Shown here: positions 36,975 to 58,322 of the stretch, one piece after another
Position numbering within the stretch: the first letter of the stretch is position 1
Layout of the letters: each line of letters starts with the position of its first letter
NCBI GenBank assembly: GCA_030041495.1
Contig: JASHNT010000085.1
Coordinates: 1-61,237, forward strand
Length of the DNA: 61,237 nucleotides
Direction of reading: 5' to 3'
Source: Bryobacteraceae bacterium
GTDB lineage: Bacteria > Acidobacteriota > Terriglobia > Bryobacterales > Bryobacteraceae
Notes under the pieces: generated by a model
Databases searched by the model: none
What the model was told of the DNA's origin: nothing
Seen by the model: only the letters and a program-made list of their open reading frames with translations
Program-made: the position numbers and the translations under genes

Positions 36975-37561
36975 TCAGTTTGCTGGTTCTAGCCGGGGCG
37001 GGGGGCTCCCGCGTAAAGGTGCGTTCGGCGGGGCATCGCGCACCAGGATCAGGTAGCGTTCAAGCGCCGTCTCCGTGCGCCACCAGTGGCCGTCGAAGGG
37101 AGGCTCGACCGCATCCAGAGAGGCTTCGACGCCGGGCGCATGGATCCAGGCTACGGGCAGAAGAGGCGAGATCGCTGTCCAGATCGAAGGCTGTATCGAA
37201 AATGCGTCCACGCGGCCGAAGCGCAGGGCCGCTGATGCAGCGCATCAGCGAAACGGTCAGTCCGAGATCGAATCTAACAGGAGCCGACGCCGCGAGACCA
37301 GGCAGGCGCGAGGCGTCGTAATCCTCCGGGTCCAGGCCCTTGGCGTCCGCACTTTACAGAATTTTGAAGGATTGTTTTAGCAGCGGGCATAAGCGCGCCA
37401 TGGTCCGTCCAGGCGAGCGCGTAATCCGACTCTTCATAAAAGCTGCGCGCATCCAGACTGTTCCCGTTTGGATGCCAAACTGCAACCCTCACTAGCGGGA
37501 GGGCGAAACGGGCTGTTTCATCGCAAAATGACGCAGCCGGCGCGTCCATACGAGGTCGCAT
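36975..37561 (-). pseudogene. Possible decayed coding sequence in three frames
   Basis: Between the TIGR03437 gene and the CBS gene no intact gene is visible, but the minus strand reads like protein in three successive frames. From ~37561: DETARFALPLVRVAVWHPNG and SFYEESDYALAWTDHGALMP. After a stop near 37350: AKGLDPEDYDASRLPGLAAS and VRFDLGLTVSLMRCISGPAL. Then in the third frame, to 36975: RVDAFSIQPSIWTAISPLLP and WWRTETALERYLILVRDAPP. Joining them needs two frame changes. This looks like a gene fragment under decay. I do not recognise the family. Low certainty, because GC-rich DNA produces long chance frames. Confidence 0.3.
37469..37484 (+). promoter_or_regulatory. Weak sigma-54-like site upstream of the CBS gene
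   Basis: TGGATGC-N4-CTGCA with the GG-N10-GC spacing of sigma-54 promoters. The -12 element matches four of five and the -24 element only the TGG core. The predicted transcription start near 37495 lies about 65 bases before the CBS ATG. Listed because similar sites recur before other stress-island genes. Confidence 0.28.
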
Positions 37562-38036
37562 GTTGGTGCGCGATGCGATGGGGCGGTCGCCGGCGAGTTG
37601 TGATCCCGGCGCGAATCTCGCCGCTATTACAGAGCGTCTGTGGACTTGCGGATGCGGAGCGATGCCGGTGGTCGATTCCGCTGGAAACGTTTTGGGGATC
37701 ATCACGGACCGCGACATTTGCGTCGTGCTCGGCACGCGCGACCGGCGGCCTTCGGAACTCACAGCGGAACAGGCGATGACGCGCGGCGTGGCCGCCTGCC
37801 GGGCGGATGACGATATTCATGAAGCCTTGCGTATGATGAGTTCCAAGAAGGTGCGCCGCTTGCCGGTGCTGGATCGCGCAGGCAAGCTGGCCGGCATTCC
37901 GTGCATGAGCGACCTGATCCTGGATGCGTGGCATGGCAGCGGCACGCGTCCGGAGCTTTCTTATGAAGACGTGATGACCGCACTTCGCGGCATCTACTGG
38001 AACGCCACGGCAGTGATTCCAGAAATGCACCGCTAA
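37560..38036 (+). CDS. Tandem CBS-domain protein (Hrp1-like)
   Basis: 158 residues made almost wholly of two CBS domains (~1-58 and ~66-125): LVRDAMGRSPASCDPGANLAAITERLWTCGCGAMPVVDSAGNVLGIITDRDIC and QAMTRGVAACRADDDIHEALRMMSSKKVRRLPVLDRAGKLAGIPCMSDLILDA. Such stand-alone pairs bind adenine nucleotides and sense energy state; Mycobacterium Hrp1 of the DosR dormancy regulon has this form. Two vicinal cysteines (CGC) lie in the first domain. It opens the stress block that continues to 58 kb. A weak sigma-54-like element lies ~75 bases upstream. Confidence 0.92.
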   Translation: MLVRDAMGRSPASCDPGANLAAITERLWTCGCGAMPVVDSAGNVLGIITDRDICVVLGTRDRRPSELTAEQAMTRGVAACRADDDIHEALRMMSSKKVRRLPVLDRAGKLAGIPCMSDLILDAWHGSGTRPELSYEDVMTALRGIYWNATAVIPEMHR

Positions 38037-38182
38037 GGGCTCGGACCTAAAAAGAACCGGGGCCCGTTCCCGCGGGAAATACGCGTTATTCACTTACTGG
38101 TCCAGCATCCTGTGCGTGTTGAAAAACGATCCGTTTGCCGAAATGGCGGAGCGCATGACTTGCGCGTATGCCGACGGGCCGC

Positions 38183-38671
38183 CTACACCAGCGTCAACTC
38201 GCGAGCCTTCACGGCGAAGGACGCCACCAACGGATTCACCAGCCTATGGGAGTCGGCCGAGCTCATGCGCAGCACGTCCTGATGCGTGCCGGCGTTGAAC
38301 ACGATGAACGGCGCGGTCGCGATGGTCTCGTCTGCCAGCACCGGCATGTTAAACATGTTTCCGAAAGGCGGCATCGCGCCGACTTCACAATCCGGGAACA
38401 CTTCAATCAGCTCCGACTCGGTCGCCAGGCGAATTTCGTTCAAGCCGAGCAGACGGCGGACCTCGTCCAGATCGGCCACGTAATCGGCAGGCAAGACCAG
38501 CATGCCGTATCCGTTGTCGCCGGAGTACACCACGACCTTGGCGAGGTCGTGCAAGGGCATGCACTCCGCCTCGGCGACGTCATGCGCGGTGTAAGCGGGT
38601 GCGTGGATGGAATGGGCATAGTGAACCCCATTCTGTTTCAAGTAGCGTTGGCAGCGGTGTAGCGTGTTCAT
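38183..38671 (-). CDS. YbaK/EbsC-family aminoacyl-tRNA deacylase-like protein
   Basis: 162 residues with the YbaK/ProX fold, which hydrolyses mischarged aminoacyl-tRNAs (for example Cys-tRNA-Pro or Ala-tRNA-Pro) in trans. Features: YTAHDVAEAECMPLHDLAKVVVYSGDNGYGMLVLPADYVADLDEVRRLLG, with the conserved catalytic-type lysine in DLAKVVV, then EVGAMPPFGNMFNMPVLADE, the family's G-x-x-P-F-G motif. The length suits a free-standing deacylase. Some relatives in stress clusters act outside proline editing. The convergent CBS gene ends 146 bases away. A TGGCGGG-N4-TTGCA sigma-54-type element lies immediately upstream. Confidence 0.85.
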   Translation of the reverse strand: MNTLHRCQRYLKQNGVHYAHSIHAPAYTAHDVAEAECMPLHDLAKVVVYSGDNGYGMLVLPADYVADLDEVRRLLGLNEIRLATESELIEVFPDCEVGAMPPFGNMFNMPVLADETIATAPFIVFNAGTHQDVLRMSSADSHRLVNPLVASFAVKARELTLV

Positions 38672-38683
38672 GCTACGAATCCT

Positions 38684-38699
38684 GCAACCAGCCCGCCAA
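38684..38699 (-). promoter_or_regulatory. Candidate sigma-54 promoter for the YbaK-like gene
   Basis: Minus-strand TGGCGGG-CTGG-TTGCA: the -24 box matches TGGCACG at five of seven positions and the -12 box is perfect, with GG-N10-GC spacing. The predicted start near 38673 would leave a two-base leader before the ATG at 38671, so either the message is nearly leaderless or translation starts later. Confidence 0.42.
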
Positions 38700-38841
38700 A
38701 TACAAATGCATGAAAAGGACCGGTTTGCCGGGGGCGGCGCCTGCCCTGGGAATGGGTGAAATCACGCACGTGGCGCCAAAACCGGGACCGGCGAAAAGCG
38801 CCAAGCCGATTCGTATTCAGCCGCTTGCAACCATATCGCTT

Positions 38842-38857
38842 TGGCCCAGCGAATGCG
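38842..38857 (+). promoter_or_regulatory. Weak sigma-54-like site upstream of the VWA/exporter operon
   Basis: TGGCCCA-GCGA-ATGCG with GG-N10-GC spacing; -24 matches five of seven, -12 three of five. The predicted start near 38868 lies ~27 bases before the VWA-protein ATG and ahead of its ribosome-binding site AGGAGGGG (38881-38888). Confidence 0.28.
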
Positions 38858-38894: not shown

Positions 38895-39857
38895 ATGGAG
38901 AGAATCGGGAAGCTGCTGGGGCTGGTTCTGGCAAGTTCGCTCATGGCATTGAGTCAAAGCGCCGTTCCAGCGCGGAGTCAAAGCGCCGTTCCAGCGCACA
39001 TCATTGTCACGGCGGGTCATTACTACAGTCACCAGCCTCCGTTGCTGAACCAGACGGAGCTGACGGTGACCCAGAATATGGACCCAGTGAGGATTACCAA
39101 TCTGGTTCCGTTGCGCGGAGACATGGCGGCGCTGGAGCTGTTTGTCTTGGTGGACGATTGCTCCAGTTGCGAAGCCGGGACCAAGTTCGATGAGCTGCGC
39201 CGCTTCATTCTGGCGCAACCCGAGACCACGGCAGTGGGCGTGGCTTACATTCGTGGCGGACGTTTGGAAATTGCCCAAGATCCCACACACGATCGCGCCC
39301 GGGCGGTGAAAGCTCTCAATGCCCCCACCGGCGGCAAGCCGGCCAATCCGTTCGTTCCTCTGGCGGAGTTGATCCAGAATTGGGATCGGGACCCCTCAGG
39401 TCCACACGAGGCGCGCCGCGTGGTGCTGATGATCTCCAACGGGATCGATCCTGCGATCACCAGCGGCCTGCTGGATCCGACGGCCGACGCAGCGATTGAA
39501 GCCGCCCAGCGCCACGAGGTCACCATCTTCGCGCTGTACCATCCCAGCGCGGACTATGCCAACACGGATGCGGCCGCGATCTACGCCGGGCAGGTGCAGC
39601 TTGCTCACGTCGCCAACGAAACGGGCGGTGAGGCTTACCTGCTGGGATTCGGACCGCTGCCGTCGCTGGCACCGTTTCTGGCCGACGTGGCGGATCATCT
39701 CGCCAACCAGTACCGGCTGGAGTTTCTGGCGAATCCCGCGGACCCAGGCGGCTCGCTCGAAGAGACCACGGTCCGCAGCAGCTTGCCGGAGATCGAGTTG
39801 ATGACCCCCGCCAAGGCTTGGATTCCGGGAGCCCGCACGCCGGGGAAAGGGCAGTAA
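38895..39857 (+). CDS. Secreted VWFA-related domain protein heading the exporter operon
   Basis: 320 residues. ATG 38895 follows AGGAGGGG by six bases. A signal peptide (ERIGKLLGLVLASSLMALS) leads into a duplicated octapeptide (SQSAVPAR/SQSAVPAH). The body resembles the acidobacterial VWFA-related family: LELFVLVDDCSSCEAGTKFDELRRFI occupies the position of the usual D-x-S-x-S metal site (here Asp-Asp-Cys-Ser-Ser), then ARRVVLMISNGIDPAIT and a C-terminal LADHLANQYRLEFLANP. The degenerate MIDAS suggests weak or no metal binding. Twelve bases separate it from an ABC permease gene, so it may be a periplasmic partner of the exporter. Confidence 0.8.
   Translation: MERIGKLLGLVLASSLMALSQSAVPARSQSAVPAHIIVTAGHYYSHQPPLLNQTELTVTQNMDPVRITNLVPLRGDMAALELFVLVDDCSSCEAGTKFDELRRFILAQPETTAVGVAYIRGGRLEIAQDPTHDRARAVKALNAPTGGKPANPFVPLAELIQNWDRDPSGPHEARRVVLMISNGIDPAITSGLLDPTADAAIEAAQRHEVTIFALYHPSADYANTDAAAIYAGQVQLAHVANETGGEAYLLGFGPLPSLAPFLADVADHLANQYRLEFLANPADPGGSLEETTVRSSLPEIELMTPAKAWIPGARTPGKGQ
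38951..38997 (+). repeat. Two-copy 24-base tandem repeat in the signal-peptide region
   Basis: Units at 38951-38974 and 38975-38998 begin with GAGTCAAAGCGCC and are identical except for the last base. Each encodes eight residues (SQSAVPAR and SQSAVPAH) at the signal-peptide/mature junction of the VWA-type protein. The unit is a multiple of three, so copy-number change would keep the frame. It looks like a recent slippage duplication. Confidence 0.9.
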
Positions 39858-39869
39858 GAGGAGCCGGCC

Positions 39870-41006
39870 ATGCGAGGCATCCTCAAGCTCGCCTACAAAC
39901 TGCTGGTCAACGATAAGGCGAAGTTCACGGCGCTGCTGGTGGGCATCACATTCGCGGTGTTTCTGATGGTCGCGATGACTTCGCTGTTCGCCGGGGTCTT
40001 GTACCGGGCGTCCGCGACAGTCATCAATCTCGGCGCCTCAGTTTGGATCATGGACCCTTCGGTCCAAACCGTGGCGAATACCATCGGCATTCCGGACTAT
40101 GTATTGGATGCGGTTCGCAGCATGCAAGGGGTGAATTACGCGGTGCCGGTGTATACCGGAGGCGCACTGGTCAAGCGTAGCGACGGCTTCTATCAAGCCG
40201 TCAACGTGGTGGGGCTGGACGACACCAGTCTGTTCGGCCGGCCGCAGTTGCTCAACGGCAAGATCGAAGACATCTATGCCGAGAACGGATTCCTCGTCGT
40301 CAAAGACACTGAGTTCTCCAAGCTGAACAATCCGGCGGTCGGCACGGAGTTCGAGCTGAACGACCACCGCGGGGTTGTGGTGGGAATCGCCAAAGTCGCC
40401 AGCAGCGGGCTGTTTGGCGTGCCGACGCTCTACACCACTTATTACCGCGCACTGCAATACATCCCCAATCCGCGCTTCACCATCTCCTACGTGCTGGTCG
40501 AGCCGAAGAGCCCGGCCGACGTCGCGAAGATCAAAAAGCAAGCACAGGCGCTGGGATATTTGGCGCTGACCAAGGACGAGTTCATGACCAAGATCTCGGA
40601 CTTTTATATGTTCCAGACCGGTCTGGGGATGAACCTTCTGATCATGACCATCATGAGTTTCATCGTCGGACTTTCGATCTCGGGCCAAACCTTCTACACC
40701 TTTGTTCTCGAAAACCTGGAGAAGTTCGGCGCGCTCAAGGCGATCGGTTCAAAGAGCCGCGAATTGATCGCGACCATTCTGTTTCAAGCCAGCTTCACGG
40801 CTCTTACCGGCTACGGCCTGGGGGTGGGGCTATGCGCCGGTACCATCGCGCTCGCCAAAATGCGCCTGCCAGACTACGCGGCGATGATCATGTTCTGGAA
40901 CCTGGCGCTGGCCTTCGGGATGGTAGTGGTGATCGCCGCGGTTTCCGGGTACTTCGGAGTGCGCAAGGTTCTGCAGATCGAGCCGTTCGATATTTTCCGA
41001 GGATGA
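39870..41006 (+). CDS. FtsX/DevC-like ABC exporter permease
   Basis: 378-residue permease of the MacB/DevC type. TM1 (FTALLVGITFAVFLMVAMTSLFAGV) is followed by a ~200-residue periplasmic domain, then three TMs (MNLLIMTIMSFIVGLSISGQTFYTF, a second near 300-330, a third near 345-365). The DevC-like cytoplasmic coupling segment FVLENLEKFGALKAIGSKSRELIATILFQ lies between TM2 and TM3. The C-terminus KVLQIEPFDIFRG is typical of DevC proteins, which in cyanobacteria export heterocyst glycolipids with DevA and DevB. The ATPase gene starts one base after its stop. Confidence 0.92.
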   Translation: MRGILKLAYKLLVNDKAKFTALLVGITFAVFLMVAMTSLFAGVLYRASATVINLGASVWIMDPSVQTVANTIGIPDYVLDAVRSMQGVNYAVPVYTGGALVKRSDGFYQAVNVVGLDDTSLFGRPQLLNGKIEDIYAENGFLVVKDTEFSKLNNPAVGTEFELNDHRGVVVGIAKVASSGLFGVPTLYTTYYRALQYIPNPRFTISYVLVEPKSPADVAKIKKQAQALGYLALTKDEFMTKISDFYMFQTGLGMNLLIMTIMSFIVGLSISGQTFYTFVLENLEKFGALKAIGSKSRELIATILFQASFTALTGYGLGVGLCAGTIALAKMRLPDYAAMIMFWNLALAFGMVVVIAAVSGYFGVRKVLQIEPFDIFRG

Positions 41007-41007
41007 T

Positions 41008-41748
41008 ATGGCGGCATCTTCAGTCAATCCGGGCAGCGCCGCGACTGGGTTAAGCAACGCCGCCATCAGCGCTACCGGCCTCGTCAAGTGGTTCGGCCAA
41101 GGGGAGGCGCGCACTTTGGCGGTACGCGAGGTGAGTATGGAAGCGAACTTCGGCGAGATGTTGTACATCGTCGGGCCGTCGGGAAGCGGCAAAACCACTC
41201 TGTTGAGCGTGCTCTCCGGGATTCTGCGGCCGGACGCGGGTAGTGTGACCGTGGAAGGGTCCGACATCTGGAAGCTTTCGAGCGACAAGCTGGCCGACTT
41301 CCGCCTGCACAAGATCGGCTTCGTGTTCCAGGATTATCACCTGTTCCCCCGGCTGACGACCGCCGAAAACGTCGCGATCCCTCTCATCCTCAAGCGTGTG
41401 AGCTGGAGCGATGCGATTCAAGAAGCCAAGAAGTATCTGGAGGTCGTCGGGCTGAGAACCCGCGCGGATTTGCCTCCGGTGAAGCTCAGCGGCGGGGAGC
41501 AGCAGCGCGTGGCGATTGCGCGCGCCATCGCGGGTAAACCGGACATCCTGATCATGGACGAGCCAACCGCTTCTCTGGATGGCGACACCGGCCACGCCAT
41601 CGTGAGCTTCGTGAAACAGAATGTGTTGAACGACAAGCGCTGCATTCTAATCGTTACCCACGACAGCCGGATCTATGGCCTCGCGACCCGGATCTTGAAG
41701 ATGGAGGATGGCCGGCTGGTGAGTATCGAAAAGGGAGACGTCTCATGA
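41008..41748 (+). CDS. DevA/LolD-type ABC exporter ATPase
   Basis: 246-residue ABC ATPase. Walker [12 protein letters not shown]-loop [22 protein letters not shown], signature [37 protein letters not shown], and H-loop [17 protein letters not shown]. The order Q-loop then [12 protein letters not shown] is typical of the DevA/MacB/LolD subfamily. It sits between its permease and adaptor genes, one base after the former and overlapping the latter by four bases. Together they form a type VII mechanotransmission-like exporter. Confidence 0.95.
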
Positions 41749-42824
41749 GGAAGATCATTTTTATGTTGTCCGCGGTGGGACTGATGGCGGGACTCTTTGT
41801 CGCCTACCTCTCCGGCATCGTCGAGCCGGCGCCTCCGCCGGCGTTCAGCCCTCCCACCAATCCGTATTCGAATGCCGTGTACGCGGAAGGAATGGTCGAA
41901 AGCGATCAACCCAGCGGCGAAAACATCAACGTCTATCCGGAAGTGGCGGGCACGGTGAAGGAGATCCTGGTGGCCGAAGGGCAGGAAGTGAAAAAGGGAC
42001 AGGTGTTGATGGCGATCGACGATTCGGTCCAGCACGCCACGGTTGAGCAGTTACAATCGCAGGCGCAAGCGGCCGCGACGATGCTGGAAGAGCTGAAGGC
42101 GCAACCGAGAAAAGAAACGCTGGACGTGAATGAGGCGCAGGTGGCCGCGGCGGCGGCAGCTTTGAAGACCGCAGAGGATGAATTGGACAAGCAACAAGCG
42201 GCGTACCGGATGAACCCCAAGTCGATCAGCAAGGACGCGCTGGACAGTGCTGTCAATGCGGCAAAGACCGCGCAGGCGAACCTGGAAGTCGCGCGCAAAC
42301 AGCGCGATCTGACTAAAGCCGGCGCCTGGATTTACGACATCAACAACCAGGAGCGGACTTACAACGCCCTGTATAAGTCGTATCTTTCGGCCGACGCGCT
42401 GTTGGCGAAATACACTCTGCGAGCTCCGGCGGACGGAAAGGTGCTGGCCATCAGTCCGATTATCGGAAGTTACGTTTCGCCGCAGGGCGCTTACGATACC
42501 TACACCCAGGGGATGGATCCGGTGCTGGTCCTCGGTTCCGCTGAGACGCGCTTGAATGTTCGCTGCTATGTGGACGAGATTCTGGTGCCGCGGCTCCATG
42601 ATCTGTCCAAGGTCAACGCACAGATGACGATGCGCGGATCGGATGTAAAAGTGCCGCTCAAGTTCGTCCGGACGCAGCCGTTCATTTCACCGAAAATCGA
42701 GCTGTCCGATGAAAGGCTGGAACGAGTGGACGTGCGGGTGCTGCCGATCGTTTTCCGGGTGGAGAAACCCAAGGACCTCAATCTGTATCCGGGTCTCCTG
42801 GTGGATGTGTATATCAGTGAGTAA
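41745..42824 (+). CDS. HlyD/DevB-like periplasmic adaptor
   Basis: 359-residue membrane-fusion protein. An N-terminal anchor ([25 protein letters not shown]) precedes the first lipoyl half (GMVESDQPSGENINVYPEVAGTVKEILVAEGQEVKKGQVLMAIDD). A Gln/Ala-rich coiled-coil hairpin (~residues 100-200) is followed by the second lipoyl half (KYTLRAPADGKVLAISPIIGSYVSPQG) and a barrel domain ending FRVEKPKDLNLYPGLLVDVYISE. The layout fits DevB, which connects DevCA to an outer-membrane channel; the next gene encodes that channel. It is coupled to the ATPase gene by a four-base overlap. Confidence 0.93.
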   Translation: MRKIIFMLSAVGLMAGLFVAYLSGIVEPAPPPAFSPPTNPYSNAVYAEGMVESDQPSGENINVYPEVAGTVKEILVAEGQEVKKGQVLMAIDDSVQHATVEQLQSQAQAAATMLEELKAQPRKETLDVNEAQVAAAAAALKTAEDELDKQQAAYRMNPKSISKDALDSAVNAAKTAQANLEVARKQRDLTKAGAWIYDINNQERTYNALYKSYLSADALLAKYTLRAPADGKVLAISPIIGSYVSPQGAYDTYTQGMDPVLVLGSAETRLNVRCYVDEILVPRLHDLSKVNAQMTMRGSDVKVPLKFVRTQPFISPKIELSDERLERVDVRVLPIVFRVEKPKDLNLYPGLLVDVYISE

Positions 42825-42828
42825 TTCT

Positions 42829-44307
42829 ATGGCCAAACGTTTCCAATGGACCGGACCGGTGATCGGAGCGTTGCTGCTCGCCGGATGCAACATCGGGCCG
42901 AAGTATGCGAAGCCGTCGGCCCCAGTGCCCCCGGCTTACAAAGAGAGCGCGCTGGCGGACGACGGCGAATGGAGGCCGGCTCAGCCGCGCGACGATCTCT
43001 CGCGCGGCAAATGGTGGGAACGGTTTCACGATCCGCAACTGAACGCGCTGGAAGATAAAGTCAGCATCTCCAACCAGAACATCGTGGCGGCCGCGGCCAA
43101 CGTCCAGAGCGCACGAGCGTTGATCCGGGAAGCCCAGACGCAATATTTCCCCAGCGTAACCGCCAACCCGGGGATCACCAACAGCCGCATCTCGAGTGCG
43201 TTTGGACAAAGCGTTGGCGTGAACTACACGACCTACGTTCTGCCGCTGGAAGCTTCGTGGGAGCCGGATTTGTGGGGCCGGGTGCGAAAGACGAAGGAGG
43301 CGAATGTGATGGCTGCGCAAGCCAGCGTTGCCGATCTCGAAAATGTGCGCTTATCGGCGCAGGCCGATCTGGCCGCCGATTATTATCAGCTCCGCGCCCA
43401 GGATGCCCTCAAACTTGTCCTGGACCAGACCGCGGCTGGCGACCGCGTCGCTTTAGAGTTGACGCGCGACCTATATGTCTCTGGGCTGGCCAACGACGAA
43501 GCTGTTGCGCAAGCCGAGTCCCAACTCAAGGTTGTGGAGGCGCAGGATACAAATCTGGGAGTCCTGCGCGCGCAGTATGAGCATGCGATCGCGGTGCTGG
43601 ATGGCGAGCCGGCTTCGACGTTCTCGATTCCCGAGCGAGCCTTTGAAGCCGGCATGCCGCAGATTCCGGCGGGTCTTCCCTCAGAGCTGCTGGAGCGGCG
43701 TCCCGATATCGCCGCGGCGGAGCGCGCCGTTGCGCAGGCGAACGCACAGATCGGCATCGCCAAAACCGCGTTTTATCCGGCTGTGACGCTGAGCGCAGCG
43801 GTCGGACTGGGAAGCGTTTCGGCGTCGAACTGGTTCACCTGGCCCAGCCGCGTGTGGTCGGCCGGGCCCGCTCTGGCAGAAACGCTTTTCGACGCGGGAC
43901 TGCGCAAAGCCACAGCGCAGCAATATCAGGCCGCGTACGATGCGACCGTGGCCAACTACCGGCAGACGGTGTTGACGGCGTTCCAGCAAGTGGAGGACAA
44001 CCTCGCGGCGCTGCGGATACTCAGCCAGGCGATTGAACAGCAGGACTCCGCCGTCGAATCCGCGGCTAGAAACTTGGAGGAGGCCGAGGTCCGCTATCGC
44101 GCCGGACTGGATCCGTATCTCAATGTCATCGCCGCGCAAAATACGTTGCTTGCGGACAGGCAAGCGACGGTCAATTTCCGTGCGCAACAGATGGTGGCTG
44201 GAGTTCAATTGGTCAAGGCTCTGGGTGGAGGCTGGGACACCTCGCGCATTCCTTCCGCGAAAGAACTGGGCGCGAAAACCTCCGCCCAACAGAGCAGCGA
44301 GCGTTGA
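42829..44307 (+). CDS. NodT-family outer-membrane channel lipoprotein of the DevBCA-like exporter
   Basis: 492 residues from ATG 42829, four bases after the adaptor stop; the frame is open upstream only as overlap. Lipobox LAGC follows a short hydrophobic signal, then IGPKYAKPSAPVPPAYKE and GKWWERFHDPQLNALEDKVSISNQN. Channel repeats carry LEASWEPDLWGRVRK, PSELLERRPDIAAAERAVAQANAQIGIAKTAFYPAVTLS and the same YDATVANYRQTVLTAFQQVEDNLAALRIL stretch as the NodT protein at 5405-6922, so the two are paralogues. NodT proteins more often pair with RND pumps; here the partner is an ABC exporter. It ends 20 bases before a convergent stress-protein gene. Confidence 0.93.
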   Translation: MAKRFQWTGPVIGALLLAGCNIGPKYAKPSAPVPPAYKESALADDGEWRPAQPRDDLSRGKWWERFHDPQLNALEDKVSISNQNIVAAAANVQSARALIREAQTQYFPSVTANPGITNSRISSAFGQSVGVNYTTYVLPLEASWEPDLWGRVRKTKEANVMAAQASVADLENVRLSAQADLAADYYQLRAQDALKLVLDQTAAGDRVALELTRDLYVSGLANDEAVAQAESQLKVVEAQDTNLGVLRAQYEHAIAVLDGEPASTFSIPERAFEAGMPQIPAGLPSELLERRPDIAAAERAVAQANAQIGIAKTAFYPAVTLSAAVGLGSVSASNWFTWPSRVWSAGPALAETLFDAGLRKATAQQYQAAYDATVANYRQTVLTAFQQVEDNLAALRILSQAIEQQDSAVESAARNLEEAEVRYRAGLDPYLNVIAAQNTLLADRQATVNFRAQQMVAGVQLVKALGGGWDTSRIPSAKELGAKTSAQQSSER

Positions 44308-51111: not shown

Positions 51112-51124
51112 CTTGGCCGCTACC

Positions 51125-51528: not shown

Positions 51529-51544
51529 TGCAACCTCTCCTCCA
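51529..51544 (-). promoter_or_regulatory. Candidate sigma-54 promoter for the primase-containing unit
   Basis: Minus strand TGGAGGA-GAGG-TTGCA: perfect -12 box and TGG core with GG-N10-GC spacing; the rest of the -24 box is poor. The predicted start near 51517 is ~21 bases before the ATG at 51496. Confidence 0.4.
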
Positions 51545-51608
51545 AACTTGGGGTGGTAGGCGGCTTTGACGCATCGCAAGGGCCCCTTGCATGCTCAAAG
51601 AGGAAGCG

Positions 51609-52055
51609 ATGGCTACCATTCTGCTTGGATGCGCCGCTTGCGGCGCGAGCAACCGCATTCCGGCAGGACGCCTCTCCAATCGCGCGGTTTGCGGCCGGTG
51701 CAAGGCGCGGCTTGCCGGGCCGCAGCAGCCGATCGAGGCCGATGAAGCCCTGTTGGAAGAGGTGGTCGCCACATCGAAAGTGCCTGTGCTGGTTGATTTT
51801 TGGGCCGCCTGGTGCGGGCCTTGCCGGATGGCCGCGCCGGAAGTTCATGCGCTGGCTCGCGAGATGCAAGGCCAGGCGCTGGTACTCAAGGTAGACACCG
51901 AAGCACATCCGCGTTTGGCAGAGCGCTACGGCATCCAGTCGATTCCCAATTTCGTAGTCTTCGCCAACGGCCGGCCTGTTCTGCAAAGGGCCGGCGTGGC
52001 CCCGCGAGCCGAGATGCGCCGCTGGCTGGAGCAATCCGGCGCAGCGATCCGCTAA
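51609..52055 (+). CDS. trxC: Thioredoxin 2 (zinc-ribbon thioredoxin)
   Basis: 148 residues from ATG 51609 (AGAGGA just upstream). An N-terminal zinc ribbon (Cys8-x2-Cys11 ... Cys28-x2-Cys31) precedes a thioredoxin domain with the active site FWAAWCGPCRMAAPE (Cys69, Cys72) and the cis-proline stretch YGIQSIPNFVVFANG. This is the Trx2 architecture, a disulfide reductase induced by oxidative stress in E. coli. It is divergent from the carboxypeptidase-regulatory-like gene with 112 bases between starts. I saw no convincing promoter for it. Confidence 0.94.
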   Translation: MATILLGCAACGASNRIPAGRLSNRAVCGRCKARLAGPQQPIEADEALLEEVVATSKVPVLVDFWAAWCGPCRMAAPEVHALAREMQGQALVLKVDTEAHPRLAERYGIQSIPNFVVFANGRPVLQRAGVAPRAEMRRWLEQSGAAIR

Positions 52056-52106: not shown

Positions 52107-52301
52107 TCACGTCCGCCGCTCTTCGGACTCGATCATCTCGAATTCCGCGCGTTCCAATTCCGCTTTTGAGACTTCGAACCGTCCGCAATCCGGGCAGACG
52201 ATTTCAACCCTTTGTTCTTCAGCATCGAGGAAGCGCCATGTCGCTTCCGCCCCGCAGCGCAAGCACAGAGTCTCGGGCGATTCTTGCTTTTCGGTGTTCA
52301 T
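52107..52301 (-). CDS. Small zinc-ribbon protein
   Basis: 64 residues from ATG 52301, with GGGGGA upstream. Two CxxC knuckles, TLCLRCGAEATWRF (Cys13, Cys16) and EIVCPDCGRFEVS (Cys36, Cys39), form a rubredoxin/zinc-ribbon-like fold, followed by a Glu-rich helix (KAELERAEFEMIESEE). No catalytic motif. Such minimal ribbons often bind RNA polymerase, ribosomes or partner proteins. It is convergent with trxC and divergent from the 52399 gene. A weak GG-N10-GC element (CGGCTAC-N4-GTGCT, 52327-52342 minus) lies just upstream. Confidence 0.75.
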   Translation of the reverse strand: MNTEKQESPETLCLRCGAEATWRFLDAEEQRVEIVCPDCGRFEVSKAELERAEFEMIESEERRT

Positions 52302-52371: not shown

Positions 52372-52387
52372 TGGCACGGCAATTGCA
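52372..52387 (+). promoter_or_regulatory. Consensus sigma-54 (-24/-12) promoter
   Basis: TGGCACG-GCAA-TTGCA is a full match to the sigma-54 consensus TGGCACG-N4-TTGCW. The predicted transcription start is near 52398. It drives the small hypothetical gene and the phosphoribosyltransferase gene, and lies 1.6 kb upstream of a gene for an NtrC-type activator. Confidence 0.78.
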
Positions 52388-52398
52388 TCGTTGAAGGC

Positions 52399-52710: not shown

Positions 52711-53392
52711 CATGGGGCGGCATGTCCGCGCCATTGTGACTAGGCTGCCGTTCCAAAACCGCACGGAAGCCGGGCGTCTGCTGGGCGCGGAGTTGGCCGC
52801 GCGCAATCTGGGGCCCGATCCAATCGTGCTGGCGCTGGCCAGGGGCGGCGTAGCGGTCGGGGCCGAAGTAGCCGAGGCTCTGCATGCCTCGCTCGATGTC
52901 ATGGTGGTACGGAAGCTCGGAGTACCCTGGCAGCCCGAGCTCGCCATGGGCGCGATTGCCCGTGGAACCCGCGTCCTCGATCACGCCATGATAACCGCAG
53001 CGCACATCTCCGAGAAGGAAGTCGAAGCGGTTGCGAAGCGCGAAACCGAAGAGTTGGAGCGGCGCGAAAGGCGCTACCGGGAAGGTCCGGAACCCGATCT
53101 CCGCGGCCGCACAGTGATCCTGGTGGATGACGGACTGGCGACCGGCTCCAGCATGGTCGCGGCCGCGCGCCACGCGCGTGCCATGAACGCGCAGCGCCTG
53201 ATCGTAGCGGTCCCGGTCGGCTCCACGGAAGCGTCCGAGCGCTTGCGCCGGGAAGCGGGCGAATGCGTGTGCCTCGCCACGCCCGAACCCTTCCGCGCCG
53301 TCGGAGAGTGGTATGTGGATTTTGAGCAGGTCTCCGACAGCGAAGTTCATCAGATCCTGAAGCACGCCCACAGTCGTGTCGGAACGGCGTAG
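52661..53392 (+). CDS. Phosphoribosyltransferase-domain protein
   Basis: 243 residues from ATG 52661, which has GGGGGAAG upstream; ATG 52712 is the alternative and would skip a low-complexity 17-residue lead. The PRPP-binding motif is TVILVDDGLATGSSMVAAARHARAM (residues ~152-176). FQNRTEAGRLLGAELAARNL, VLALARGGVAVGAEVAEAL and VVRKLGVPWQPELAMGAIA are typical of the dormancy-associated phosphoribosyltransferase group (for example Rv0571c of the DosR regulon), which is not tied to a known nucleotide. It ends 190 bases before the response-regulator pair. The base it acts on is unknown. Confidence 0.9.
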   Translation: MPQDKAAPSAKPNANPDMGRHVRAIVTRLPFQNRTEAGRLLGAELAARNLGPDPIVLALARGGVAVGAEVAEALHASLDVMVVRKLGVPWQPELAMGAIARGTRVLDHAMITAAHISEKEVEAVAKRETEELERRERRYREGPEPDLRGRTVILVDDGLATGSSMVAAARHARAMNAQRLIVAVPVGSTEASERLRREAGECVCLATPEPFRAVGEWYVDFEQVSDSEVHQILKHAHSRVGTA

Positions 53393-53582: not shown

Positions 53583-53963
53583 ATGACCGAAGCCGCCCTC
53601 CCCAAGAAAGTGCTCGTGGCGGACGATAATGCCACTAGCCGCGAACTGGTCCGCGCCGTTCTGGAACAATCCGGACACGTGGTTTACGAAGCAGCCAACG
53701 GCATGGAAGCCGTCCGCCGGGCGCGGGAAGTCGATCCCGACTTGATCCTGCTGGACTTGCACATGCCCGCTCTGGACGGCTTCGGCGTCTTGAAAGAGCT
53801 ACAAGGAGACGAGAAATTTAGCTCTACCCCCATCGTCGCGCTCACTGCCAGTGCCATGCAGGGCGATCGCGAGCGAGCCTTATCCGTGGGCTTTACCGGC
53901 TATATCGCAAAACCCATCAGCCTGAACGCGTTGCGAGGAGAAATCGAGCGCCTGTTGGTGTAG
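53583..53963 (+). CDS. Single-domain response regulator (CheY/DivK-like)
   Basis: 126-residue receiver domain with no output domain. Acidic pair Asp14-Asp15 (VLVADDNATSRELVR), phospho-acceptor Asp58 (LILLDLHMPALDGFG), Thr88 (VALTASAM) and Lys110 (GYIAKPISLNALRGEIERLL) are all present, so it should be phosphorylatable. It lies 23 bases upstream of an NtrC-type regulator. No histidine kinase is encoded in the window, so the phosphodonor is elsewhere. It may be a phosphate sink or relay for the activator. Confidence 0.94.
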   Translation: MTEAALPKKVLVADDNATSRELVRAVLEQSGHVVYEAANGMEAVRRAREVDPDLILLDLHMPALDGFGVLKELQGDEKFSSTPIVALTASAMQGDRERALSVGFTGYIAKPISLNALRGEIERLLV

Positions 53964-53986: not shown

Positions 53987-55405
53987 ATGTTCGAGTCCGA
54001 TCCCTCCCTTTTCTTGCTCATTATTGACGACAACCAGGGCAGCCTGGACCTGCTTTCAAACGCCTTGGCGCAGCCGGGTCTCGAAATCCTCACTGCGTCC
54101 AATCCCGACGAGGGCCTCGACCTGTTCTGCTCCCGTCATCCGCAGATTGTGCTGACCGATTTGGTCATGCCGCAGATGAGTGGCATGGAGGTGCTGGAGC
54201 GGATCATGGAGATCGATCCCGCAACCGACGTGATCCTAATGACCGCGCATTATTCCACCGAATCCGCGGTGGAGGCGATACAGAAAGGCGCCAGCGATTA
54301 TTTGAATAAACCGGTTTCGCTCGGGCCTTTGCGCGAGCGGATCGCTAAGCTGATCAAGGAGGCACGCAGGCGGCAACGTTCCTTGGAGCTTGAAGACGAG
54401 TTGCGCGGGGCTGCTGAATTCGAAGGGATCGTCGGCCGCAGTCCTCAGATGTGGGACATGTTCTCGCGAATCCAGCGCGTCGCCCCGCACTACCGGGCAT
54501 TGCTGATTACCGGCGAAACGGGGACGGGCAAGGATTTGGTGGCTCGTGCGATTCACCGCCTGAGCCCGGTCGCCCAGGGCCGCTACGTGGTCCTGAACTG
54601 TTCCGCCGTAGTGGAAACGCTGTTTGAAAGCGAGCTGTTCGGCCACGTGAAAGGTTCCTTCACCGGCGCGACCCACGACAAGCCCGGACTGTTCGAGCAT
54701 GCCCATGGAGGTACCTTGTTCCTGGACGAAATCGGCGATATGCCGCTGGCCACGCAGGCCAAGCTCCTGCGCGTGCTGCAGAACCAGGAAGTGCAGCGTG
54801 TGGGCGCGCTCACTGCGCGCAAGGTCGACGTGCGCGTGGTTGCTGCCACCAATCACGATTTGCGCGCGGCCATCGCGGACAAACGCTTCCGCGAGGAGCT
54901 TTATTACCGGCTCTCGATGGTGGAGTTGCACGCTCCGCGGCTGGCCGACTGGAAGGAAGACCTGGCGCTGCTCTGCCGGCATTTTCTGCGCAAGTACTCC
55001 ACCCAATACGGCAAGCAGATTCGCGGTCTGACGCATCGCGCGCAAATCCGCCTGGCGCGGCATTCCTGGCCGGGCAACGTGCGGGAGCTGGAAAACGTCA
55101 TTGGTCACGCCGCGATGATGACCATGAGCGACACCATCGACATGCAGGACCTACCCGGTTACCTGCGCACCGCCGCGGAGCGCCCCGAGCCTGGCGAACC
55201 GGCCGATTCGGCGCCAGTTGCCGCCGATATCGGGTCTCTGGAAGCGCAGGAGCGTGAGCTATTGGTCAACGCTCTGGCCACGGCTGGGGGCAATCAATCC
55301 AAAGCGGCTCGCCTGCTGCGGATCGGGCGCGATGCCTTGCGCTACAAGGTAAAGAAGCACAGGCTCGACACGCCCGATTCCGGGCACGCCATGGCTGCGA
55401 ACTGA
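53987..55405 (+). CDS. NtrC-family sigma-54-dependent response regulator
   Basis: 472 residues. Receiver domain 1-125 (Asp15-Asp16 region, phospho-Asp58 in VLTDLVMPQMSG, Lys108 in DYLNKPVSL). AAA+ domain ~145-380: Walker A GETGTGKD (176-183), sigma-54 contact loop GSFTGA (223-228) where GAFTGA is usual, Walker B GGTLFLDEIGDMP, and RLSMVELHAPRLADWKEDLALL. A Fis-type helix-turn-helix lies at ~435-460 (GGNQSKAARLLRIGRDALRYKVKKH). It follows the CheY-like gene by 23 bases and is the only sigma-54 activator in the window, sitting among genes with -24/-12-like promoters. It is therefore the natural candidate for their activator. Confidence 0.95.
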   Translation: MFESDPSLFLLIIDDNQGSLDLLSNALAQPGLEILTASNPDEGLDLFCSRHPQIVLTDLVMPQMSGMEVLERIMEIDPATDVILMTAHYSTESAVEAIQKGASDYLNKPVSLGPLRERIAKLIKEARRRQRSLELEDELRGAAEFEGIVGRSPQMWDMFSRIQRVAPHYRALLITGETGTGKDLVARAIHRLSPVAQGRYVVLNCSAVVETLFESELFGHVKGSFTGATHDKPGLFEHAHGGTLFLDEIGDMPLATQAKLLRVLQNQEVQRVGALTARKVDVRVVAATNHDLRAAIADKRFREELYYRLSMVELHAPRLADWKEDLALLCRHFLRKYSTQYGKQIRGLTHRAQIRLARHSWPGNVRELENVIGHAAMMTMSDTIDMQDLPGYLRTAAERPEPGEPADSAPVAADIGSLEAQERELLVNALATAGGNQSKAARLLRIGRDALRYKVKKHRLDTPDSGHAMAAN

Positions 55406-55506
55406 TTCTCCTCGCAAGTGCGCTGTGGCGCATAAGCTGGGTCTATTGACGCGAAGCCGTGGCCAGCCCGTCTCCGGATCGATTGCCAGCATTCAAGTTA
55501 GCGCCA

Positions 55507-55522
55507 CGGTTATGCTCGTGCA
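55507..55522 (+). promoter_or_regulatory. Weak sigma-54-like site upstream of hsp20
   Basis: CGGTTAT-GCTC-GTGCA with GG-N10-GC spacing; -12 matches four of five, -24 only the GG. The predicted start near 55533 is ~18 bases before the hsp20 ATG. I see no better promoter in the 145 bases upstream. Confidence 0.22.
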
Positions 55523-55550: not shown

Positions 55551-56099
55551 ATGGCTGAAATCAATGTGGTCAAACACGCGAAGCCCGAGCGAGGCGAGCT
55601 CAGCCGCTGGCTGGGGTTCGAAACTCCGCTGTTTCGCGGAAGCCTGTTTGGGCTGAATCCATTCGCCCTTATGAGACGCTTCACCGAAGATCTCGACCGG
55701 GTCTTCAATTACGCGCCGCTGACGCCAGGCAGTGGCACGGCCTGGAGCCCCGCGATCGAGGTGAAGGAAAAGGACGGCAAACTCCTGGTGACCGCCGAGC
55801 TTCCCGGCGTGAAGAAGGAAGACGTGAAAGTCCACATCGAGGGCGACACGCTTGTGGTGGAAGGCGAACGAAAAGAGGAAAAGGAAGAGAAGCGCGAGGG
55901 CTACTATCACACCGAGCGTTTCTACGGTAATTTCTATCGCGCCATCCCGCTGCCGGAGGGCGCCAAAGTGGACTTGACCGCCGCCAATTTCAAAGACGGC
56001 GTGCTCGAGATCACGATCCCGATTCCGGAGGCGAAAACGAAAGGCAAAGAGATCCCTATTACTGAAGGGACGAAGGCTGAAGAAAAGGAAGCGGCCTAA
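55551..56099 (+). CDS. Hsp20-family small heat-shock protein
   Basis: 182 residues from ATG 55551. The N-terminal arm (ELSRWLGFETPLFRGSLFGLNPFALMRRFTEDLDRVF) is followed by an alpha-crystallin domain (~residues 58-150): AWSPAIEVKEKDGKLLVTAELPGVKKEDVKVHIEGDTLVVEGERKEE ... FYGNFYRAIPLPEGAKVDLTAANFKDGVLEITIPIPE. The C-terminal ITIPIP matches the I-x-I motif used for oligomer assembly. It is an ATP-independent holdase that binds unfolding proteins. It is followed after three bases by a tandem Usp gene, a pairing also seen in dormancy regulons of other phyla. Confidence 0.95.
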   Translation: MAEINVVKHAKPERGELSRWLGFETPLFRGSLFGLNPFALMRRFTEDLDRVFNYAPLTPGSGTAWSPAIEVKEKDGKLLVTAELPGVKKEDVKVHIEGDTLVVEGERKEEKEEKREGYYHTERFYGNFYRAIPLPEGAKVDLTAANFKDGVLEITIPIPEAKTKGKEIPITEGTKAEEKEAA

Positions 56100-56102: not shown

Positions 56103-56972
56103 ATGAAGATCGTCCTGGCGATGGACACTTCCTCGGCGAGCCAGAGCACGCTGGATCTAATACTAGCGCGGCCCTGGCCCGCCCATTGTTATTTTGAGGC
56201 GGTCAGCGTGGTTGAACCCTCGCACTTGTGGACTACCTCGGAAGCCGCCGTAGAAGCCGAGAGCCGTGCGCACGAAGTGGTGGCGCGGGCGATCGAACGG
56301 CTTCGCGCCGCCTCCAAGGAGGCTTGCGGCGCGGTCTTTTCCGGCGATCCCAAGACCGTGATCCTGGACCGCGCTTGCGCTTTGGGCGCAGACCTCGTGG
56401 TTGTCGGGTCGCATGGCGCTTCCGCGGTCGCGCGTTTCCTGCTGGGCAACGTGGCCGCATCTGTGTTGCGCTATTCTTCCTGCTCGGTTGAAGTGGCGCG
56501 AGCGCGAACGCCGGATGCGAGCGGATTCAAGGTCTTGTTGGCAACGGATGGTTCCGCATTCTCTGAACAAGCGGCCAAATCGATTACCCTGCGTCCCTGG
56601 CCCGAGGGAACGGAAATCCGGGTGTTGAGCGCCGTCGAGCTGATTCTGCCCACGGCTCGCGCGATGTTCGAAGTACCGATCATTGATACGGCGTTCCTCG
56701 AAAAAGTTCGCGGCGAGGCGATGCGGCGCGCGCAAGACGCCGTCACGCGGGCTCGCGATATTCTCTGTGCAACCGGCCTGAACGTTAGCGATTCAATCTC
56801 GGTTCTGGCCGATGCCCCTAAAGCCGTCATCCTCCAGGAGGCCGGCGAGTGGGGCGCGGATCTGATCGTGCTCGGCTCCCACGGCCGTCACGGCATGGAC
56901 CGGTTTCTGGTGGGCAGCGTGTCCGAAGCAGTCGCGATGCACGCGCCCTGCTCAGTCGAAGTGATTCGCTGA
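56103..56972 (+). CDS. Tandem universal stress protein (UspA x2)
   Basis: 289 residues, two Usp domains, both with the ATP-binding signature. VVGSHGASAVARFLLGNVAASVLRYSSCSVEV ends domain 1 (~1-137), and VLGSHGRHGMDRFLVGSVSEAVAMHAPCSVEVIR ends domain 2 (~142-289). This differs from the Usp at 44328-45215, whose second domain is degenerate. It lies three bases after hsp20 and is certainly in the same transcript. Likely a nucleotide-binding stress regulator. Confidence 0.95.
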   Translation: MKIVLAMDTSSASQSTLDLILARPWPAHCYFEAVSVVEPSHLWTTSEAAVEAESRAHEVVARAIERLRAASKEACGAVFSGDPKTVILDRACALGADLVVVGSHGASAVARFLLGNVAASVLRYSSCSVEVARARTPDASGFKVLLATDGSAFSEQAAKSITLRPWPEGTEIRVLSAVELILPTARAMFEVPIIDTAFLEKVRGEAMRRAQDAVTRARDILCATGLNVSDSISVLADAPKAVILQEAGEWGADLIVLGSHGRHGMDRFLVGSVSEAVAMHAPCSVEVIR

Positions 56973-56979
56973 GTCCCGC

Positions 56980-57843
56980 CTATTTCTGAGAAGGCGAATT
57001 CAGGTAAGCAACCACATCGGCGATGTCCTGTGCCGAAAGCTGCGGCCAGCTGATGCCTTGCTCCAGCATGCGCTGATGCATCCGCCGCCCTTCACCCCAG
57101 CCGATCGCGGCTAGGGACGCCGGCGTGACCGTTTTGCCGATCGCCCGGTCGCCATGGCAGGAGGCGCAGCCCTTCTGGCGGAACATCTTTCTCCCGTCTT
57201 TCGGATTTCCTTGTGGACCGCGATACTGAAGTTCCCAGACATAGGCGAGGATCTTGCGCATGTCCGGCTCGCTGACTTGAGGAACGTGGCGCATTAGCGT
57301 GACATGGTTCCACATGCTCGCGCCGATGTCCATCCATGTAGTATTCGCGAGGGTCGTATTGGCCAAGCTGGTCCGCTGAATCTGCTGAAAGTGACGCCGT
57401 CAGATCGAAAACCGCCCGCCCCGGGCCCATCGATGAACTGGAGAGGGAATGCCAGCCCGCGCGCTGCTTGCTCTCGAACACCTCTTTGCCGCGGCCAGCT
57501 TCGGCGGGGAACTCGAGAAACTGCACCGAATAGAGGTACGCGAACAGGTCCTCCCAATCGCTGGCGATAAGGGGCGGCCGGCTCAGCCGCTCCGCGGACA
57601 TCTCTGCAAGCATCGCCGGCGTGTGATTTCAGACGGCACTCGCCAAAGCCGGGGCGGTGTAGGCCGGCGCCAGCTTTGCACCCAGCTCGGGCGCGATTTC
57701 GCTGGGCTCATGCTCAGCGCCTTGTGCTCGAATGGGGTGGCATTCGAGACACCCCGCGTCCTCCGGCAACAACGCCCCGCGGTTCGTATCCGCTGCCCAC
57801 GCAGCGCACGCACAGACCAAAAGAAGAAGCCCCCTCGATTCAT
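56980..57843 (-). pseudogene. Multi-heme cytochrome c, inactivated
   Basis: The remains of one gene are readable from ATG 57843 (perfect AAGGAGG site upstream) to 56980. Lesions: a five-base G run (57830-57834 on the plus strand) is one base short, so the signal peptide RGGLLLLVCACAAWAAD is out of frame with the start. A tryptophan codon in AV-W-NHTPAMLAEM has become TGA (57629-57631). One extra base near 57365 shifts the frame between SADSADQ and LANTTLANTTWMDIG. Heme sites: CLECH is intact, the second reads RAGWH after ESKQ (both cysteines lost), and CASCH near the end is intact. Two (M)WNH motifs mark repeated cytochrome domains. It follows the DksA-like gene by 38 bases. Confidence 0.82.
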
Positions 57844-57881
57844 GGCAGCCTCCTTTTGGGGCCGGCCCTCCCGCCTCCGGT

Positions 57882-58271
57882 CTAAGCGGCGTGGGTGAAC
57901 ACCGGCTCCATCCCAACGCCGGCAGCCTCGGCTTCCTCCTGGCACGGCACACACAGCCGAGCCCAGGGAACCGCGTCCAGACGGCGCCGTGGAATCGGCT
58001 CTTCACAGTTCGCGCACAATCCGTAGGTGCCGTCTTCGATGGCTGCCAGCGCGAACTGAATCTCGTGAACCAGGCGCGATTTCTGATCCAGATTGCGAAG
58101 CGCCATCTCGCGATCCGTGTTCGATTTGATCTGGTCGAGCGGATCCGCCAGATATTCGATTTGCAGCTCCTCGCGGGCCACGGAGGTTCCCAGAACTTCC
58201 CGGAGCTTCGCTTCCAAGGCCTTTTTGCGCTTCAGCGTCGCAGAATCATTTATGCTGGTTACGTGGTTCAT
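57882..58271 (-). CDS. DksA/TraR-family zinc-finger protein
   Basis: 129 residues. A coiled-coil N-terminal half (TLKRKKALEAKLREVLGTSVAREELQIEY ... SRLVHEIQFALAAIEDGTYGLC) precedes a four-cysteine zinc finger (Cys86-x2-Cys89 ... Cys107-x2-Cys110; CANCEEPIPRRRLDAVPWARLCVPC). DksA proteins enter the RNA polymerase secondary channel and, with ppGpp, retune transcription under starvation. The coiled-coil tip lacks the classical DxxD-A motif in a clear form, so ppGpp synergy is uncertain. A 16-bp inverted repeat (TTCAACT-CC-AGTTGAA, 58277-58292) sits between the ATG and a sigma-54-like element. It heads a unit with the broken cytochrome gene. Confidence 0.9.
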   Translation of the reverse strand: MNHVTSINDSATLKRKKALEAKLREVLGTSVAREELQIEYLADPLDQIKSNTDREMALRNLDQKSRLVHEIQFALAAIEDGTYGLCANCEEPIPRRRLDAVPWARLCVPCQEEAEAAGVGMEPVFTHAA

Positions 58272-58306
58272 TTTGGTTCAACTCCAGTTGAATTGAACTG
58301 AGAATG

Positions 58307-58322
58307 TGCACGCGTGAGGCCA
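58307..58322 (-). promoter_or_regulatory. Candidate sigma-54 promoter for the DksA-like gene
   Basis: Minus strand TGGCCTC-ACGC-GTGCA: TGGC core in the -24 box, four of five in the -12 box, GG-N10-GC spacing. The predicted start near 58296 gives a ~25-base leader that is filled by the inverted repeat at 58277-58292. Confidence 0.4.

Follow-up and report, generated by a model that had tools for sequence, protein, structure and literature searches.

Candidate sigma-54 promoters and an enhancer-like palindrome in a stress-gene island of a Bryobacteraceae bacterium

Does a cluster of stress genes in a Bryobacteraceae bacterium form a regulon and, if so, which activator would drive it? The cluster is an island of about 21 kb within a 61,237-nt stretch of contig JASHNT010000085.1 (assembly GCA_030041495.1), the whole of which is referred to here as the window; the host genome comprises 6.12 Mb in 144 contigs. 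An initial annotation had attributed the island to a single NtrC-type protein encoded within it, acting with sigma-54. We computed directly the gene content of the island, the excess of sigma-54 promoters, an enhancer motif, its spacing from the promoters, the conservation of these elements at some orthologues, and the phylogeny of the regulator. We conclude that the locus is probably a stress or persistence island, part of which is predicted to be a sigma-54 regulon controlled by a clade of NtrC-type activators through a palindromic enhancer.

Sigma-54 promoters in the island

The genome encodes rpoN (one PF04552 match, E 2.4e-57, in a 557-aa open frame). All nine GG-N10-GC elements proposed in the initial annotation were located in the window, and the five that it regarded as strong are the sole TGG-N8-TTGCW matches in the 21-kb island (Table 1). 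Across the window this pattern occurs seven times, five of these being the same elements, against an expectation of 3.64, and 8 of 100 shuffles reach seven; individual 20-kb stretches of the same genome (n = 20) contain 0-5 matches. When only promoter-proximal matches are counted, using the same automatic gene starts, the 20 stretches average 0.20 each and the island has three. A plain genome-wide count of the consensus with at most one mismatch was uninformative, since it gave 58 matches and no excess over a reversed control (77). Hence, we scored promoters in the oriented direction with a sigma-54 matrix and compared them with shuffled sequences. Scores for 11 island promoters were higher than those for 186 background promoters from the 20 stretches together with 14 other promoters in the window (Mann-Whitney p = 4.6e-5). 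With dinucleotide shuffles of each promoter, the island gave a Fisher p of 0.00038, compared with 0.72 for a reversed-motif control and 0.014 for the best of the 20 background stretches. The element at 52372 was outside the 11-promoter test, since the gene caller placed it within an open reading frame (52300-52710) that we judged over-long. Among 172 promoters from 20 NtrC neighbourhoods, one of them from this genome, the Fisher p was 1.3e-8 for the sigma-54 score and 0.84 for the reversed motif. Thus, the clustering of sigma-54 scores over shuffled controls that the initial annotation had named as a check is present: -24/-12 promoters exceed the background of sampled promoters as a set, not at each gene.

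The raw pattern counts, and two weak elements (37469 and 55507) that score at chance level, would suit an explanation in which GC-rich DNA produces such matches by chance and other sigma factors transcribe the island. We consider this quite improbable, given the oriented excess in promoter regions, the constrained spacing to an independently learned motif, and the recurrence of sites at YbaK, GroEL and VWA genes in relatives. The other two weak elements, at 38842 and 58307, are not significant singly but lie 89 and 98 bp, respectively, from enhancer-like palindromes.

The sequence TGGCACRNNNNTTGCW is matched perfectly at three places in the 6.1-Mb genome: the strongest element, at 52372, and two others that lie between called genes. 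The called phosphoribosyltransferase start is 340 bp downstream of the 52372 element, which precedes a possible small open reading frame (52399-52710, GTG start). That frame, directly behind the element, had no matches in the relatives' loci searched. An additional element directed toward GroEL, at 46408, was absent from the initial annotation.

An enhancer-like palindrome and its conservation

We learned a motif de novo from 60 sequences upstream of kinase, Usp and NtrC genes of relatives, with the host genome excluded. The resulting 16-bp palindrome, TGcGcgAatTcgCgCA, had a log-likelihood of 91, as compared with 48 and 45.5 for two shuffled sets. In the held-out host genome, sites scoring at least 12 numbered two in 3.1 kb of island intergenic DNA, and three in 1.8 kb of a kinase-receiver-NtrC module elsewhere in the genome (C122), whereas 40.9 kb of background had one. 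With cut-offs matched, none of 100 permuted motifs reached the value for the island or that for relatives' untrained DNA; 13 of 100 reached the value for phosphoribosyltransferase loci, and those loci bear no claim here.

The palindrome occurs at a constrained distance from sigma-54 sites. For 17 of 52 intergenic palindromes there is a sigma-54 site (score at least 9) at +40 to +110, whereas the permuted mean is 3.6 and none of 60 permutations reaches 17. Offsets detected between 30 and 130 bp fall at 44 to 91 bp, start to start. Two of the 52 palindromes are from the window and 15 are flagged as occurring in training sequences, although one flag (L063:1333) may reflect just an identical word; because the sigma-54 matrix was untrained, the spacing is independent of the training palindromes. 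At several sites before kinase genes the palindromes are paired, 23 bp apart. In the window, spaced palindromes are found at the YbaK gene, the VWA-MacB-ABC-HlyD-OEP operon and the DksA-like gene, and weakly at Hsp20 (Table 1). Together with rpoN and the promoter excess, they support joint control by an NtrC-type protein and sigma-54 for the first three of these and possibly for Hsp20. Such control of the whole island was not borne out, since no enhancer palindrome was found at five of the nine promoters tested (baeRF, GroEL, 51529, CBS, and 52372, which has the best sigma-54 site).

Perfect palindromes are also more frequent in genomes that encode the regulator. Genomes with an NtrC match at E <= 1e-170 have a mean of 2.05 (n = 39) versus 0.80 in those without (n = 112), compared with 0.13 and 0.12 for a reversed control; within the family, the means are 2.11 and 1.09 (p = 0.006). 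The perfect-palindrome pattern used for these per-genome counts was chosen after sites had been seen.

Two other patterns were tried and discarded. A first, hand-made palindrome was circular, since part of it had been taken from the window itself; it matched none of 93 loci perfectly and was replaced. A second, TGSGTGANNTCRCSCA with up to two mismatches, had 335/309 matches genome-wide versus 117/115 for its control, and was set aside because the excess may partly reflect coding-sequence composition and several of the best matches in the host genome are intragenic.

We also noted palindromes in other contexts. Short, secreted-looking proteins that match no Pfam family and appear alike by eye are encoded in the host genome (L127:3487-4159, C2) and at L066:14870-15734; both genes have an upstream palindrome and sigma-54 site, with an offset of 80 (L127) or about 250-270 (L066). 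Perfect palindromes lie beside phosphoribosyltransferase genes at L033:1088 and L036:703, and in neither place does a called gene read away from the palindrome. At L274:5233-5309 (G015), a strong sigma-54 site is close to a palindrome pair with 23-bp spacing, away from the Hsp20 gene of that locus.

Conservation of the elements, which the initial annotation had made a touchstone, is seen at some orthologues (YbaK, GroEL, the VWA operon, some Usp and phosphoribosyltransferase genes) but not at most Hsp20 and YbaK loci. MacB orthologues with >75% identity were found in two genomes of the same genus (90% and 78%). Both have the palindrome upstream of the VWA gene, scoring 16.0 (L294) and 12.6 (L295), and TGGC-N5-GAATGC recurs 90 and 86 bp from it, respectively, compared with 89 bp in the window. 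We fetched 29 relatives' loci from 47 YbaK matches (own included); a sigma-54 site reaches p <= 0.05 in seven, that of L251 being far upstream, and two (L252 and L260) have a palindrome at 57-79 bp. The distance from the start of the YbaK element to the ATG is 27 bp in the window and exactly the same in its two closest orthologues (L244/L273, p = 0.005; L243/L272, p = 0.134). Where GroEL lies beside baeRF, a site is present in both of the other genomes in which we saw this arrangement: L034 (TGGAATCCGGTTTGCA, p = 0.010) and L272 (score 16.1). At L272:5085-5460 (G008), a palindrome (score 18.1) and a sigma-54 site separated by 67 bp also lie between GroEL and an open reading frame that by eye resembles an ATP synthase beta subunit. 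No intergenic sigma-54 or palindrome match of at least 11 was detected in 20 kb around the second Hsp20 gene of the host genome (L282).

The NtrC-type activator and its proposed targets

The window NtrC protein has intact motifs: Asp58, GSFTGA, Walker A (GETGTGKD), Walker B (LFLDEIGD) and the helix-turn-helix (HTH) region. Its GSFTGA loop differs from GAFTGA by an Ala-to-Ser change that is common to most aligned rows. Homologues at E <= 1e-170 number 48 in 39 of 151 genomes (own included). Among 40 NtrC neighbourhoods, 32 have a kinase homologue, 30 a receiver, 16 a tandem Usp and three a CBS homologue. In the host genome, the NtrC protein of the C122 module is 75% identical to the window copy and nearly identical to it in the HTH recognition region, and the module carries its own palindrome pair and sigma-54 site.

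The window NtrC and seven others form a clade with support 100/99. No kinase was found in the available sequence around the eight members, although the L057 and L065 contigs end nearby, making absence unsure there; two loci outside the clade (L073 and L100) also lack one. The HTH region is intact in seven of the eight, having diverged in L067, and L057 has GAFTDA in place of GAFTGA; function may be lost or changed in these two. Seven clade loci contain 11 stress-class genes in 102.8 kb, compared with none in the 20 background stretches and about 0.03 per kb at 34 other NtrC loci; one of the seven (L035) was fetched via its phosphoribosyltransferase, so that gene is present by construction. In a wider scan of contig collections, the NtrC homologues were all distant, the nearest (53%) being a Terriglobia record, and at six of these 80 distant NtrC loci a gene of one of nine island types lay close by. 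A separate stress cluster, at L275 (G014), has matches to Hsp20 (64%), two CBS proteins, phosphoribosyltransferase, the zinc ribbon and NtrC (57%) within about 6 kb, and a sigma-54 site before one of its CBS genes.

The genome has 26 Sigma54_activat matches (21 strong and five weak), so the presence of a local activator alone is not telling. Less likely, in our view, genuine sigma-54 promoters of the island answer to the kinase-linked C122 paralogue or to other activators, and the local NtrC has other targets or is redundant. Being nearly identical in the HTH region, the C122 copy might act at those sites too, and it has a palindrome pair and sigma-54 site of its own; the absence of the palindrome at five island promoters, and the changes in L067 and L057 within the same clade, would also fit. 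By contrast, the window NtrC retains all of the functional motifs checked, and the clade loci are rich in stress-class genes.

We therefore set out control by the NtrC clade as a model, which is supported for part of the island on sequence grounds. Members of the clade, the local copy included, would most likely bind the 16-bp palindrome (about TGSGYGAWWTCRCSCA), which should begin about 45-100 bp ahead of where the 16-bp sigma-54 element begins; bound NtrC would open the -24/-12 promoters for sigma-54 RNA polymerase. Predicted targets in the window are YbaK, the VWA-MacB-ABC-HlyD-OEP operon, the DksA-like gene and possibly Hsp20. The GroEL, baeRF-Usp and phosphoribosyltransferase genes have sigma-54-like promoters with no enhancer and may answer another activator; promoters lacking the palindrome would need a different activator or a distant enhancer, or the site may be unused. 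The local NtrC has the look of a duplicate of the conserved kinase/receiver/NtrC module that lost its kinase and now lies among stress genes. It would be phosphorylated by the C122 module kinase or some other kinase. We infer its DNA binding, its phosphorylation route, the inducing signal, for which the initial annotation proposed hypoxia, starvation or membrane stress, and the function, which may be survival under energy or oxygen limitation.

Several results weigh against control of the island by the NtrC clade. The sigma-54 matrix was untrained, gene starts came from a home-made caller, the island was picked by an earlier reader for its sites, and the genome-wide consensus count showed no excess. 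Two elements score at chance level, the enhancer is missing at the five promoters named above, and upstream of the local receiver-NtrC pair itself neither a sigma-54 site exceeding chance nor a palindrome scoring at least 9 was found. The position of the YbaK element would put the transcript start one base before the ATG, predicting a leaderless transcript, which is unusual. Genomes lacking a close NtrC orthologue contain palindromes too (the mean of 0.80 above). Among relatives, the sigma-54-like element of the VWA operon has low matrix scores, 5.0 (L294) and 5.2 (L295), and no palindrome above 8.4 lies within 2 kb upstream of a more distant MacB operon (G147, 66%). The other 22 YbaK loci lack a sigma-54 site at p <= 0.05, as do 25 of 29 Hsp20 loci fetched from 53 matches, the remaining four having one. 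Finally, baeRF was detected at E <= 1e-60 in three of 150 relatives, one of which has a clear site.

Island genes and related systems

Most of the gene content listed in the initial annotation is borne out by Pfam (CBS, YbaK-like tRNA editing, two Usps, baeRF, VIT1, thioredoxin, phosphoribosyltransferase, receiver, REC-AAA-HTH8 NtrC type, Hsp20 and DksA/TraR) or by NCBIfam (GroEL), as detailed in Table 1. The two Usps, both with tandem domains, are at separate places rather than adjacent. The label "primase-like" (49693-51213 as scanned) finds no counterpart in any Pfam or NCBIfam family, and the small zinc ribbon is supported by CxxC pairs read by eye. The VWA operon and the small c-type cytochrome had not been listed. 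The VWA label (38895-39857) likewise comes from reading the sequence by eye, with no Pfam match, and its ATG start at 38895 was picked by its ribosome-binding site; the ATG at 51496, for the AP_endonuc_2 gene set, was picked by eye. The baeRF protein scores well under the cut-off of the NCBIfam hibernation-factor model. Directly beyond the island edge is a Peptidase_A4 family gene (58428-59282).

Table 1. Predicted genes, sigma-54-type elements and palindromes of the island, in window coordinates
Feature	Position	Strand	Evidence and remarks
Sigma-54-like element, upstream of CBS	37469..37484		Score 5.8, shuffle p = 0.39; no enhancer
CBS-domain pair protein	37560..38036	+	Pfam CBS x2
YbaK/aminoacyl-tRNA editing-type protein	38183..38671	-	Pfam tRNA_edit 4.3e-25
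Sigma-54 -24/-12 element TGGCGGGCTGGTTGCA, upstream of YbaK	38683..38698	-	Score 12.7, p = 0.017
Enhancer-like palindrome TGGGTGAAATCACGCA, shared by YbaK and VWA operon	38753..38768	.	Score 16.6; sigma-54 elements at 70 and 89 bp, p = 0.002 for both
Sigma-54-like element TGGCCCAGCGAATGCG, upstream of VWA-efflux operon	38842..38857	+	Score 10.2, p = 0.08
Five-gene operon: VWA-labelled protein, MacB/FtsX-like permease, ABC ATPase, HlyD-like protein, outer-membrane efflux protein (OEP)	38895..44307	+	Pfam
Tandem Usp, immediately 3' of baeRF	44328..45215	-	Pfam Usp, 2 stretches
baeRF family protein (ribosome-hibernation-like)	45222..46382	-	Pfam baeRF families
Second sigma-54-like element CGGCATAAGCGTTGCA, toward GroEL	46408..46423	+	Score 13.7, p = 0.010
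Sigma-54-like element TGGTCACCGGATTGCA, upstream of baeRF	46420..46435	-	Score 8.9, p = 0.09
Sigma-54-like element TGGAAACTCAGTTGCT, upstream of GroEL	46455..46470	+	Score 11.4; starts 42 bp before GroEL ATG
GroEL paralogue	46497..48119	+	NCBIfam GroEL equivalog
VIT1/CCC1-type transporter	48123..48851	+	Pfam VIT1
AP_endonuc_2-type TIM barrel, family-less protein ("primase-like"), small carboxypeptidase-regulatory-like protein	48857..51496	-	Pfam; middle protein, no NCBIfam match
Sigma-54-like element TGGAGGAGAGGTTGCA, before AP_endonuc_2 set	51529..51544	-	Score 10.4; no enhancer
Thioredoxin 2 (TrxC type) with Thio2 zinc ribbon	51591..52055	+	Pfam
Small zinc-ribbon-like protein	52107..52301	-	CxxC pairs in translation, by eye
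Strongest sigma-54 element TGGCACGGCAATTGCA	52372..52387	+	Score 18.4; no enhancer within 160 bp
Phosphoribosyltransferase	52712..53392	+	Pfam Pribosyltran
Single-domain receiver	53583..53963	+	Pfam Response_reg
NtrC-type activator (REC-AAA-HTH8)	53987..55405	+	Pfam PF00072, PF00158, PF02954; no adjoining histidine kinase
Weak enhancer-like palindrome TGGGTCTATTGACGCG, upstream of Hsp20	55438..55453	.	Score 9.9; 69 bp from poor element, p = 0.038
Weak sigma-54-like element CGGTTATGCTCGTGCA, upstream of Hsp20	55507..55522	+	Score 2.1
Hsp20	55551..56099	+	Pfam
Second tandem Usp	56103..56972	+	Pfam Usp, 2 stretches
Small c-type cytochrome	56980..57366	-	Pfam Cytochrom_C and Cytochrome_CBB3 domain
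DksA/TraR-type zinc-finger protein	57882..58271	-	Pfam
Sigma-54-like element TGGCCTCACGCGTGCA, upstream of DksA-like gene	58307..58322	-	Score 7.7, p = 0.19
Enhancer-like palindrome TGGGGGTTTTGGCGCA, upstream of DksA-like gene	58405..58420	.	Score 12.8; 98 bp from sigma-54 element, p = 0.002

The nearest described system is NmpRSTU of Myxococcus xanthus, which, in the text available for PMC11841059, uses sigma-54 to activate a CBS protein, a Usp and oxidase genes, with oxygen depletion as the proposed trigger. The two are alike in working: an NtrC-like regulator, sigma-54 promoters, a palindromic enhancer with TGCGC/GCGCA half-sites that is often paired, control of a CBS protein and a Usp, and a kinase operon that is self-controlled (PMC11841059). 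We do not class the island system as Nmp, because no globin-sensing kinase is among the four kinases scanned and the binding site is spaced differently. NmpRSTU has a globin-coupled kinase (NmpU), a receiver-kinase hybrid (NmpS) and a double receiver (NmpT) (PMC11841059). The four module kinases scanned here are all PAS-HisKA-HATPase proteins with no globin match, and none is in the island; the rest of the kinases in the genome were not searched for globin. One of the four has a receiver, at its C-terminus rather than its N-terminus, and several receiver matches lie next to the kinase in some relatives (L104, L109, L110 and L112). NmpR sites are described as GCGCA-N5-TGCGC with mostly 14-15 bp between sites (PMC11841059), whereas here the palindrome is 16 bp and several pairs are at 23-bp intervals. 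The window NtrC also lacks an adjoining kinase, and we saw no oxidase operon.

A narrower reading, in which the island is a homologue of the NmpRSTU regulon devoted to oxygen limitation, seems unlikely, although it would account for the kinases, tandem Usps and occasional CBS homologues adjoining NtrC relatives, for the palindromes of several kinase genes, and for the c-type cytochrome of the island. In addition to the kinase and spacing differences, no oxidase subunit I, hemN or hemerythrin family was detected among the island proteins scanned.

DosR of Mycobacterium, to which the initial annotation had drawn a parallel, is a NarL/LuxR-type regulator that is not known to use sigma-54; the local regulator is NtrC-type by Pfam, so the parallel extends to gene content and not to regulator class. 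Shared features of the DosR regulon are Usps, an alpha-crystallin-type heat shock protein and other dormancy genes under a response regulator; the regulon is also mentioned in the available text of PMC6127331 and PMC11841059. The lxa locus of Burkholderia cenocepacia similarly clusters Usps, alpha-crystallin and metabolic genes that are linked with survival at low oxygen, but is a 50-gene cluster for which a CRP/Anr-type regulator is suspected (PMC6127331, same text). Sigma-54 regulons of Clostridiales were likewise reconstructed by comparative genomics from an enhancer motif plus a sigma-54 promoter, but in the available text of that study they have other targets and enhancers mostly 100-250 bp from the promoter (PMC6615313), compared with mostly 44-91 bp here. 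Among the literature matches listed, we found no study of a sigma-54-controlled persistence regulon in Acidobacteria or Solibacter, and the available main text of a 2025 survey of sigma-54 regulons does not contain the string "Acidobacteri".

We advance tentatively, as a doubtful extension of control by the NtrC clade, a DosR-like dormancy programme operating via sigma-54. A duplicated, kinase-less NtrC with the DNA specificity of its parent would travel alongside loosely collected stress genes and tie them together (the tRNA-editing protein, envelope efflux, the DksA-like protein, chaperones, the ribosome-hibernation-type protein and Usp), with some targets, such as YbaK, being leaderless.

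Our analysis yields an enhancer motif and a target list that can be tested. If control of part of the island by the NtrC clade is true, sigma-54 control of persistence genes, known for few systems such as NmpR, extends to this lineage, and a kinase-less, duplicated activator can turn into the local regulator of a stress island, which would represent a route of regulon assembly.

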